The notes under the pieces were generated by a model, which saw only the letters and a list, made by a program, of their open reading frames with translations, had not been told where the DNA came from and did not search any database. Of a DNA stretch of 64,000 bases, positions 1,511 to 4,169 are shown in pieces. The DNA lies in NCBI GenBank assembly GCA_031261715.1, contig JAISJB010000001.1, forward strand, positions 124,001 through 188,000, given 5' to 3'. Position 1 is the stretch's first letter; each line of letters begins with the position of its first letter. The position numbers and the translations under genes were made by a program. Source of the stretch: Endomicrobium sp. (GTDB lineage Bacteria > Elusimicrobiota > Endomicrobiia > Endomicrobiales > Endomicrobiaceae).

Positions 1511-1867
1511 TTATTGTACTATTGAGCTTTTAGAAATATTAATTAATTGTTTAAAAGTAGTATTATCTAATACTGCAATGTCTGATAATAACTTTCTATT
1601 GAGTTTAATATTAGCCACTTTAAGTCCTAAAATAAATGAACTATATGACATGTTAAATTGTCGACTTGCTGCGTTAATACGTATTATCCATAAAGTCTTA
1701 AAATTAGCTTTTCTATCCTTTCTACCTATATAGGAATAAGCAAGAGATTTTGCTACTTGTTGTTTAACGATTCTCCAACGGTTTTTTTTAGAAGCATAGG
1801 ACCCTTTAGCAAATCTAAATACTTTCTTTTTTCTTTGTCTTGTATATACAGCACTCTTTACACGCAT
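1511..1867 (-). CDS. rplT: Large ribosomal subunit protein L20
   Basis: L20 binds 23S rRNA early in 50S assembly; in many bacteria it also represses its own operon. The 118 residues have the usual length. The sequence begins MRVKSAVYTRQRKKKVF and contains the conserved KGSY and WIIRINAA segments that bind rRNA. It lies between rpmI (about 50 nt upstream) and pheS (29 nt downstream), so it belongs to the infC-rpmI-rplT operon. I looked for the classical L20 repressor pseudoknot upstream of rpmI and cannot recognise one by eye. Confidence 0.97.
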   Translation of the reverse strand: MRVKSAVYTRQRKKKVFRFAKGSYASKKNRWRIVKQQVAKSLAYSYIGRKDRKANFKTLWIIRINAASRQFNMSYSSFILGLKVANIKLNRKLLSDIAVLDNTTFKQLINISKSSIVQ

Positions 1868-1917: not shown

Positions 1918-2124
1918 TTAGAATTTATATGGCATCATAACTTTTATTGCTTTTGTATTTGATTTTGATAATATAATAGATTTTCTAGAAATTCTGTTTT
2001 GATTACCTGAATCTCCTGTTAACAGATGTCTTTGCCCAGCTTTTTTACACTTAACTTTTTTATTATGAGTAATTTTAAAACGTTTTTTTGCACCACTATG
2101 AGTTTTCATCTTCATATTAGACAT
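1918..2124 (-). CDS. rpmI: Large ribosomal subunit protein L35
   Basis: Small basic protein of the 50S subunit. The 68 residues start with MSNMKMKTHSGAKKRFK, which contains the family signature MKTHSGAKKRF. This is followed by a Lys/Arg-rich segment and RHLL, also typical. The true start could be the Met at codon 4 or 6; the M1 ATG is preceded by a purine-rich AAGGGAAAAAA that can act as a ribosome binding site. It lies 32 nt downstream of infC. Confidence 0.95.
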   Translation of the reverse strand: MSNMKMKTHSGAKKRFKITHNKKVKCKKAGQRHLLTGDSGNQNRISRKSIILSKSNTKAIKVMMPYKF

Positions 2125-2156: not shown

Positions 2157-2693
2157 CTAAATATTTTTTTGTATATCTTTTTTAGGAGTTAACACCATAA
2201 ACATTCTGTTTCCTAGAACTGAAATTTTTGGTTCAAACGTTAATATATACTCAGCAACAGATGATTTAATTTTATTTAGTACTGCACTTCCTAAATCTTT
2301 ATGTTGAACTTCACGTCCTGAAAACATCATTGATACTTGAACTTTATTCCCATGTGCAAGAAACAAAATTATACGTTTAATTTTTATTTCTAAATCAGCT
2401 ACTCCTATTCTTGGTCTTAATCTAATCTCTTTTAATTGAACAACTTTTTGTTTTTTTTTACCTTCTTTAACCTTTCTTTCCATCTTATATTTAAACTTTG
2501 AAAAATCAACAATTTTACAAACAGATAAATCACCTTGTGAAGACACTTCAACTAAGTCTAAACCACTTTCCTTAGCTTTTGCTAAAGCTTCGTTATAATT
2601 AACTATTCCTAACATATTGCCATTAGCATCAATTAATCTTATCTTAGAAGCTTTTATAAATTGATTTATAAAAAACCTTTTCTTGTTTACAAT
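2157..2693 (-). CDS. infC: Translation initiation factor IF-3, probable non-AUG (ATT) start
   Basis: IF-3 controls start-codon selection and keeps the 30S subunit free. From the first in-frame ATG (2615) only 152 residues are made, beginning at LGIVNYNEAL, which is well inside the family's N-domain. Reading upstream in the same frame gives FFINQFIKASKIRLIDANGN, which matches the conserved IF-3 start (INxxIRaxxVRLID). The open frame reaches a TAG at 2702-2700 and contains no ATG, GTG or TTG codon. An ATT at 2693-2691 just after GGGAGGA gives 178 residues, the family's normal size; an ATA at 2669 after AAAAGG is the alternative. An AUU start is known for infC in Escherichia coli and other bacteria, where it allows IF-3 to autoregulate. 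The exact codon is uncertain; the extension itself is clear. The C-domain (GREVQHKDLG) is intact. Confidence 0.85.
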   Translation of the reverse strand: MVNKKRFFINQFIKASKIRLIDANGNMLGIVNYNEALAKAKESGLDLVEVSSQGDLSVCKIVDFSKFKYKMERKVKEGKKKQKVVQLKEIRLRPRIGVADLEIKIKRIILFLAHGNKVQVSMMFSGREVQHKDLGSAVLNKIKSSVAEYILTFEPKISVLGNRMFMVLTPKKDIQKNI

Positions 2694-2715
2694 TCCTCCC
2701 TAGACTAAAAAAATA

Positions 2716-2787
2716 TGGGCAGTGCAGGATTTGAACCTGCGACCCTTTCCTTGTAGGGGAAACACTCTCCCACTGAGCTAACTGCCC
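2716..2787 (-). tRNA. tRNA-Val (anticodon UAC)
   Basis: A full cloverleaf reads on the minus strand: acceptor GGGCAGT/ACTGCCC, D arm GCTC...GAGT, anticodon stem TTTCC/GGAAA with loop CCTACAA (anticodon TAC), T arm GCAGG-TTCAAAT-CCTGC, discriminator A. The CCA end is not encoded. It lies between obgE and infC on the same strand. The spacer of about 140 bp upstream is AT-rich without another gene. Confidence 0.97.
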
Positions 2788-2924
2788 AAAGTCAATTTAA
2801 ACTATATTTTAACATAATATTTCAATCTTGTTTCATACTAATTATACAATATTAGATACATTGGAAAAATATATGAGTTAATCCTAAAATAAACAAATTA
2901 TAAATATTTGTAACAAAATTTATT

Positions 2925-4169
2925 TTAATCGTCTGTAAAAGTAAATTGATAATTCCCAATTTGAATAATATCACCGTGTTTTGCTCCACTTTTTTTTAAT
3001 TCTGATTTTAAGCTTAATCTTTCAATTATGTTATCATAATAGTATTTTAATATATTGATGTTATTATGCTTTGTTATTAATGTATAAAATGGTTTAGTCT
3101 TTCTTCCTGTAACAATAAATTTTCCGTTTGCTATGTTAATTTGTAAATCAGCCTTATAAATATATTGTTTAATATTAATATTACTTTTATTGTGTATATT
3201 GTTTATTGTTTGTATTTTCTCTAAACTTTTAACTATTTCCTTAATTAAACTATTAATACCTTGATTTGTTACTGTAGAAACTTCAATTATTTTATTATAC
3301 TGTTGCTTGACTAAATATTTTTTAAACTGATTGATAAATTTATTTTGCGAGCAACATAAATCAATTTTATTTAATACTATTATAATTACTTTATCTTGTA
3401 TTTCTTTTGAGTATTGTGTTAATTCAGAGTTGATTATATTATATTTTAGATATATATTCTCATCTTTATTATAATCTATTACATATAGAAGAACTTTAGT
3501 ACGATAAATATGTTTTAAAAATTTTAACTTTCTTTCCTTCATTATAGCTGGAATATCTACAACTATAAAATTTTTAACATTATTTCTTAACACTCCTAAA
3601 TTAGGAAATAAAGTTGTAAATGGATAATCTGCTATTTTGGGTTTAGCATTAGAAATTTTGGAAAGTAGAGAAGATTTTCCAGAATTTGTTAAACCAATTA
3701 TTCCCACATCTGCTATTAAACGTAAATCAAGTTTAACTTTACTTGACTCACCTTGACTACCTCTTTCAGCAATTAGTGGATTCCTTTTATAAGTTGCATT
3801 TCCTCGACCGCCACTACCTCCCTTAGCAATTAATAGTTTCATTCCAAGTGTAGTAACATCTGCTATTAAATGTTCATTTTTCCAAATCATAGTTCCTAAA
3901 GGAACTTTAATTATTGTATCTGTTCCAGATTTCCCTGACTTATTATATTTATTTCCTTGTGTTCCATTTTCTGCAATAAATTGTAAATTTTGTGTAAGTT
4001 TTGATAATGTATTATTGCAAAGATCACTTTCGAAATAAATATCTCCACCTCTACCTCCATGTCCTCCAGTAGGTTCTTTATGAGTACTATATTTCTGTTT
4101 ATCAAAATATAATCCTCCACTTCCACCATTGCCAGCTTTAAGATAAATAATGACTTCATCTATAAACAT
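2925..4169 (-). CDS. obgE: Obg-family GTPase (ribosome assembly/stress), altered switch II
   Basis: GTPase associated with 50S maturation and the stringent response. I place the start at the internal ATG at 4169 (MFIDEVIIYLKAG), the family's normal opening. The longer open frame to 4277 overlaps rpmA and adds an unrelated hydrophobic stretch. Domains: glycine-rich Obg fold (about 1-157; GNGGSGG, GGHGGRGGD), G domain with P-loop GLTNSGKSS, switch I YPFTTL, NKID, and a C-terminal OCT domain ending near IGNYQFTF. The oddity is G3/switch II: the usual DIPG followed by a GlxEGAxxGxGLG loop is replaced by DIPAIMKERKLKFLKH, so the motif glycine is alanine and about six residues are missing. Function may be weakened or altered. 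It is cotranscribed with rpmA and rplU, a conserved trio. Confidence 0.95.
   Translation of the reverse strand: MFIDEVIIYLKAGNGGSGGLYFDKQKYSTHKEPTGGHGGRGGDIYFESDLCNNTLSKLTQNLQFIAENGTQGNKYNKSGKSGTDTIIKVPLGTMIWKNEHLIADVTTLGMKLLIAKGGSGGRGNATYKRNPLIAERGSQGESSKVKLDLRLIADVGIIGLTNSGKSSLLSKISNAKPKIADYPFTTLFPNLGVLRNNVKNFIVVDIPAIMKERKLKFLKHIYRTKVLLYVIDYNKDENIYLKYNIINSELTQYSKEIQDKVIIIVLNKIDLCCSQNKFINQFKKYLVKQQYNKIIEVSTVTNQGINSLIKEIVKSLEKIQTINNIHNKSNINIKQYIYKADLQINIANGKFIVTGRKTKPFYTLITKHNNINILKYYYDNIIERLSLKSELKKSGAKHGDIIQIGNYQFTFTDD

Follow-up and report, generated by a model that had tools for sequence, protein, structure and literature searches.

The window, a 64,000-nt stretch of the genome of Endomicrobium sp. 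(GenBank assembly GCA_031261715.1, contig JAISJB010000001.1, positions 124,001 to 188,000), carries on its minus strand the operon infC–rpmI–rplT, with a tRNA-Val gene immediately upstream. The genome comprises 483,639 bases in 5 contigs, and its owner is a termite symbiont, a reduced endosymbiont of the family Endomicrobiaceae in the phylum Elusimicrobiota. Its nearest named relative by IF-3 is an Endomicrobium sp. MAG, at 72% identity. A genome this small is in keeping with the Endomicrobiellum endosymbionts of flagellates (PMC11257099), from which a genus assignment may be inferred, and a plasmid search with the window as query returned remote matches only. The features discussed below are as follows.

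2715–2788, minus strand: tRNA-Val(TAC), found by ARAGORN, at the site of an L20-leader-like element in relatives
2700–2702, minus strand: in-frame TAG, the upstream bound of the infC frame, read from the sequence
2695–2699, minus strand: Shine–Dalgarno sequence GGAGG, 4 nt upstream of the GTA
2691–2693, minus strand: ATT, start candidate of the earlier note, rejected here (variable position, 1 nt from GGAGG)
2688–2690, minus strand: proposed initiation codon GTA (GTC, GTA, ATA or ATC in 66/66 family sequences, ATG in the related family f10)
2667–2669, minus strand: ATA, alternative start candidate, rejected here (homologous codon varies in relatives)
2613–2615, minus strand: first ATG in frame, within the N-domain of IF-3 (IF3_N profile positions 1–18 lost)
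2157–2690, minus strand: infC coding sequence from the proposed GTA start, which is placed by comparison; IF-3 of 177 residues plus stop (TIGR00168, PF05198, PF00707)
1918–2124, minus strand: rpmI (L35), ATG start, downstream in the operon, named from a reading of the protein
1511–1867, minus strand: rplT (L20), ATG start, downstream in the operon, named likewise

The identity of the infC product is clear: the full frame matches the IF-3 family TIGR00168 over its full length at 181.6 bits, against a cut-off of 60, and its PF05198 and PF00707 domains both score above cut-off. Where its translation begins is less obvious. The frame reads TAG (2702–2700) GGA GGA ATT (2693–2691) GTA (2690–2688) AAC AAG AAA AGG TTT TTT ATA (2669–2667) AAT CAA TTT, and no ATG, GTG or TTG occurs between that TAG and the ATG at 2615–2613. 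A protein begun at this ATG would lose positions 1–18 of the IF3_N profile, with the score falling from 89.1 to 61.4 bits, so that no canonical codon stands at or upstream of the conserved N-terminus. The earlier note had described both the missing start codon and the conserved residues upstream of the first ATG, and both descriptions hold. A canonical start further upstream is ruled out by the in-frame TAG and the tRNA-Val gene, which ends directly upstream of infC and leaves no space for a distant start, and a sequencing error by the many independent genomes described next.

A non-canonical codon conserved across Endomicrobiaceae

For comparison, the infC 5′ ends of family, class and phylum members were brought into register at the conserved Asn of the NQF/NQY motif. 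The family set comprises 66 infC sequences, two of which come from one contaminated genome (G071). Codon changes were counted on an IF-3 protein tree made without the start-region codons; because this tree was quick and many of its forks are weakly supported, the counts are approximate minima.

The codon eight positions before the conserved Asn, GTA 2690–2688 in the window, is GTC in 37 sequences, ATA in 15, GTA in 13 and ATC in one. It has changed at least 14 times, always inside this set of four and never to ATG, GTG, TTG, GTT or ATT, so that infC keeps a non-canonical codon here in 66/66 family sequences. The start that the earlier note had proposed, AUU or else AUA, is probably wrong. Neither of its codons is conserved: the codon homologous to ATT 2693–2691 has changed at least 33 times and appears across the family as GTC, ATC, TGT, GCC, ATT, GTT, AGT, GCT, TTC, ACC, CTC and GAC, and ATA 2669 corresponds to ACT, ACA, ACC, ATC, ATT or GTA in relatives. 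At the level of single bases, counted over 67 rows in which one contig appears twice, the second base of the GTA-position codon is T in all rows and the third is A or C in 67/67, through at least 12 changes. The base at −1 of the proposed start (window region 2694–2691) is T or C in 67/67 rows through at least 14 changes, a pyrimidine kept although its codon otherwise varies freely across the family.

Could this position simply hold a conserved valine or isoleucine? Two observations argue against it. First, several genomes (G012, G013, G020, G022 and G033) carry an in-frame stop 2–5 codons upstream, as in TAG GAG GGT GCC GTC GAA in G012, which excludes a valine read from an upstream start in those genomes and leaves them no alternative start candidate. 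Second, codon choice at the position is skewed. Valine codons downstream in the same genes are GTT (41%), GTA (35%), GTG (17%) and GTC (7%); GTC is thus the rarest downstream but the commonest at the start position, and GTT and GTG, together 58% of downstream valine codons, are absent there. By a rough hand estimate, the chance of avoiding GTT and GTG over about 14 changes, taken as independent draws with a 42% chance each, is about 5 × 10⁻⁶. The in-frame upstream ATGs found in some relatives (for example, G047, G052, G053 and G055) were also rejected as starts: they precede the conserved Shine–Dalgarno sequence and are unshared, and other genomes have a stop there.

Canonical and non-canonical infC starts in other lineages

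Families outside Endomicrobiaceae allow this placement to be checked. In f10, of the same class, all five sequences have ATG at exactly the GTA position in an ungapped alignment (ATG GAT TTC AGA AAA ... AAC CAA). The earlier note had named an ATG at the same site in a related genome as an observation that would refute its proposal; one does exist, at the GTA position and not at the ATT. Within the same order, GTA occupies this position in f2, f5, f6 and one f4 genome, and in a second f4 genome an ATA lies one codon-step from it; f7, of the same class, has ATA two codons closer to the Asn. Canonical codons recur in f9 (GTG) and f11 (ATG) and, in a reading by eye of the rest of the phylum, in f16 (TTG) and f13 (ATG), whereas f12, f15, f18, f20 and f23 apparently use ATT or ATC. 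Canonical codons can therefore serve infC and do so in related families (f9, f10, f11, f13 and f16), although not in Endomicrobiaceae; that several families apparently have ATT or ATC and others ATG or TTG indicates that the device has been lost or gained several times within the phylum. Loci of other Elusimicrobiota families in which infC apparently begins with ATT or ATC are L135–L145, L139, L126, L128, L142 and L098.

Further afield, we surveyed infC in Bacillota-type genomes (about 30) and Poribacteria-type genomes (28). Most have ATT, ATC or ATA after a strong Shine–Dalgarno sequence and lack a canonical start, so non-canonical infC starts are widespread. This survey gave no clear GTA or GTC start, three loci (L225, L243 and L248) being ambiguous, with GTA or GTC after ATC or ATA. 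At the Poribacteria-type loci L242–L267, infC has a conserved ATA after GGGGGTGTGAAA, likely another non-canonical IF-3 start. The E. coli record, our positive control, annotates infC from ATT, with thrS directly upstream.

infC stands alone among the conserved reading frames compared

Relaxed initiation throughout the genome is not supported. The comparison covered 325,727 bases of the window genome and, from its reduced sister G074, 269,977 bases; an open reading frame was flagged if in each genome its alignment extended 5′ of the first canonical codon by at least 6 codons. Nine of 217 non-overlapping conserved reading frames were flagged. In eight of these, sorted by eye, the alignment apparently spills into the upstream region and a plausible canonical start exists, ATG in nearly all; in infC alone of the 217, one must read into the conserved protein to meet a canonical codon. 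A check for an odd initiator tRNA found a single CAU tRNA by ARAGORN on the main contig. Predicted RNA structure around the infC start is ordinary (z −0.35), no terminator was found downstream of tRNA-Val, and promoter-like matches upstream of infC were uninformative.

A proposed GUA start with probable self-repression

We infer from these comparisons both that infC initiates at GUA 2690–2688 and that IF-3 represses this initiation, and we give the combined reading a probability of roughly 0.78. Under this model, the GGAGG 4 nt upstream would set initiation at the GUA, which the initiator tRNA would read with a mismatch at the third position. Because IF-3 would destabilize 30S complexes on mismatched codons such as this one, free IF-3 would repress its own synthesis, and infC translation would rise as IF-3 falls. 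Selection against escape from IF-3 would be expected to leave just this pattern, a codon that changes repeatedly yet never becomes canonical. IF-3 thus probably limits its own production through the infC start; the suggestion of the earlier note that this self-control is retained is the best-supported reading of the locus, the device having been kept in a reduced genome, with GUA rather than AUU as its codon.

The alternative that retains most weight, although we consider it unlikely, is that GUA or GUC is a weak constitutive start that fixes a low level of IF-3 with no feedback from IF-3 itself. A weak start alone would likewise conserve a non-canonical codon, and residues of the C-domain are changed in the endosymbiont IF-3. 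The window protein is identical to that of E. coli at 73 of 173 residues. At the positions that we chose as presumably involved in codon discrimination (R99, K110, R112, R116, R131, R133, R147 and R168, E. coli numbering), it keeps R99, K110 and R133, has the replacements R112K and R147K, and is changed at R116, R131 and R168. Given this divergence and the last three changes, codon discrimination is not assured. The R131 position is serine in nearly the whole family and so does not reflect endosymbiont decay. Against a merely weak start, it is infC of all genes that bears the non-canonical codon, such infC starts recur in distant phyla, and feedback has been demonstrated in E. coli (Butler et al. 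1986, 1987, as cited in PMC5472188).

Initiation at AUU 2693–2691, with self-control as in E. coli, is less probable still. E. coli infC does start at AUU, other families of the phylum and Bacillota have ATT or ATC infC starts, and GGAGGA directly adjoins the AUU on its 5′ side. The same adjacency counts against it, however: GGAGG is only 1 nt from the ATT (the tight spacing that the earlier note had pointed out), compared with 4 nt from the GTA. Among the strong Shine–Dalgarno sites of the window genome, a spacing of 1 nt does not occur, and of the short spacings 4 nt is the most frequent (8 genes); in E. coli infC, the AUU stands well downstream of GGAGG. Across the family, the Shine–Dalgarno bases are strongly conserved (G at −9 in 66/66 and at −6 in 66/67), with distances to the GTA-position codon of mostly 4–5 or 7–8 nt by a simple matching score. 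Further, the codon homologous to the AUU is GCC, GCT, TGT, AGT, ACC, GAC, TTC or CTC, among others, in close relatives.

It is very improbable that ribosomes begin at an out-of-frame UUG (2692–2690), stop at once at UAA and re-initiate at the GUA. The sequence ATTGTAA does contain UUG-UAA overlapping the GUA, an arrangement shared by a few relatives (L053, L091 and L047), but most others have no UUG there (GTC GTC, TGT ATA or GCC GTC), and the UUG lies 2 nt from GGAGG. Least credible is a truncated IF-3 begun at the internal ATG 2615–2613, the first canonical codon, or at AUA 2669, which AAAAGG precedes by 6 nt: relatives conserve the amino acids encoded upstream of either codon, the ATG lies within IF3_N and the ATA is not conserved.

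One feature counts against initiation at GUA with self-repression as set out above, since repression of non-canonical codons alone leaves the exclusion of U from the third base unexplained. The base after the start codon is G in 59/66 sequences (60/67 rows), and GUU or AUU at the start would therefore create an out-of-frame UUG one base downstream, beside the same Shine–Dalgarno sequence. We hypothesize that third-base U may be avoided to prevent such a start. Consistent with this idea, the next base is T, C or A after the ATT starts that we read elsewhere in the phylum, and G after two ATC starts; the idea is confounded by conservation of the second residue, and U is also missing from the seven rows in which A comes next. 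More broadly, the infC start may follow a rule [AG]U[AC] throughout the order, with GUA and GUC as genuine start codons, G excluded as an escape from IF-3 and U as creating UUG. We offer this rule tentatively, at somewhat less than even odds.

The leader upstream of infC

Most of the relatives that we tested, among them members of other families of the order, have a second likely control in front of infC. There, the Rfam model L20_leader (RF00558) finds matches of 28–43 bits, with E values down to 1.5 × 10⁻⁵; these scores do not reach the gathering score of 58.7. No match to this model was obtained in the window region, which was tested as L001. The genomes with a tRNA-Val gene near infC and no L20_leader match are the window genome, G072 (L053), G074 and G051. 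The presence of the tRNA and the absence of the match suggest that one likely control was lost or replaced and the start-codon device kept; the L20-leader-like element thus seems to have gone during genome reduction. Among reduced genomes, tRNA-Val(TAC) near infC is seen in the window (2715–2788) and at L053, L085, L086 and L046.

Near this region, obgE (2925–4166, minus strand) encodes a G3/switch II segment that reads DIPAIMKERK-LKFLKHI, without the glycine of DxPG and about six residues that are present in G074. ObgE of L053 is also altered at G3/switch II, and the GTPase site of ObgE may be eroding in the window genome.

Discussion

Feedback through a non-canonical infC start is textbook knowledge, and the documented codons that we found are AUU, AUC and AUA. 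According to Butler et al., as cited in PMC5472188, E. coli infC starts at AUU, IF-3 rejects such codons and thereby limits its own synthesis, and a change of AUU to AUG abolishes the control; Sacerdot et al. 1996, cited in the same source, is a further reference for the self-repression. The window gene resembles E. coli infC in its lack of a canonical start, its strong Shine–Dalgarno sequence, its operon and a third codon base unable to pair with C34 of the initiator tRNA. The two differ in the codon, which is AUU in E. coli, GUA here and GUC, GUA, AUA or AUC in the family, and in what lies upstream, a tRNA-Val gene here and thrS in E. coli. Repression is demonstrated in E. coli and is read here from sequence comparison.

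Two other systems are close. In Streptomyces, infC starts with ATC, and the GTC start of sigR, described as the first documented GTC start, is repressed by IF3 (PMC5472188). GUC, the commonest codon in Endomicrobiaceae, would likewise be a conserved start after a strong Shine–Dalgarno sequence with IF-3 as the proposed repressor; sigR, however, encodes a sigma factor, and its GTC was established by mutation and Western blot, whereas that of Endomicrobiaceae is proposed from comparison. The window itself has GTA, the GTC being found in 37/66 relatives. In S. aureus, an AUA start of infC was mapped by Ribo-Ret ribosome profiling (PMC13009471). It shares with the window a non-canonical codon and a strong Shine–Dalgarno sequence, and 15/66 Endomicrobiaceae sequences also have AUA; the S. 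aureus start differs from GUA or GUC and is known from experiment. The surveyed Bacillota and Poribacteria genes resemble the window in having ATT, ATC or ATA after a strong Shine–Dalgarno sequence and differ from it in showing no clear GTA or GTC. In the literature searched, Streptomyces sigR is the only precedent for a GTC start, and none was found for GTA, or for GTC or GTA in infC. The mechanism is thus of a known kind, and the choice of codon appears new for infC within the literature searchable. If the proposed start is correct, GUA would be a start codon undocumented for any bacterial gene in that literature.

Start callers restricted to ATG, GTG and TTG will misplace the IF-3 start in these genomes, and a cultured relative, Endomicrobium proavitum, with ATA as its predicted infC start, makes our reading of the start codon testable. 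For the organism, the device persists in a 484-kb genome despite a tRNA gene replacing the upstream leader. For the family, the retention of GUC, GUA, AUA and AUC through repeated codon changes, without reaching AUG, GUG, UUG, AUU or GUU, is strong evolutionary evidence for selection against escape from IF-3, and it makes Endomicrobiaceae a natural record of mismatched codons that still work.
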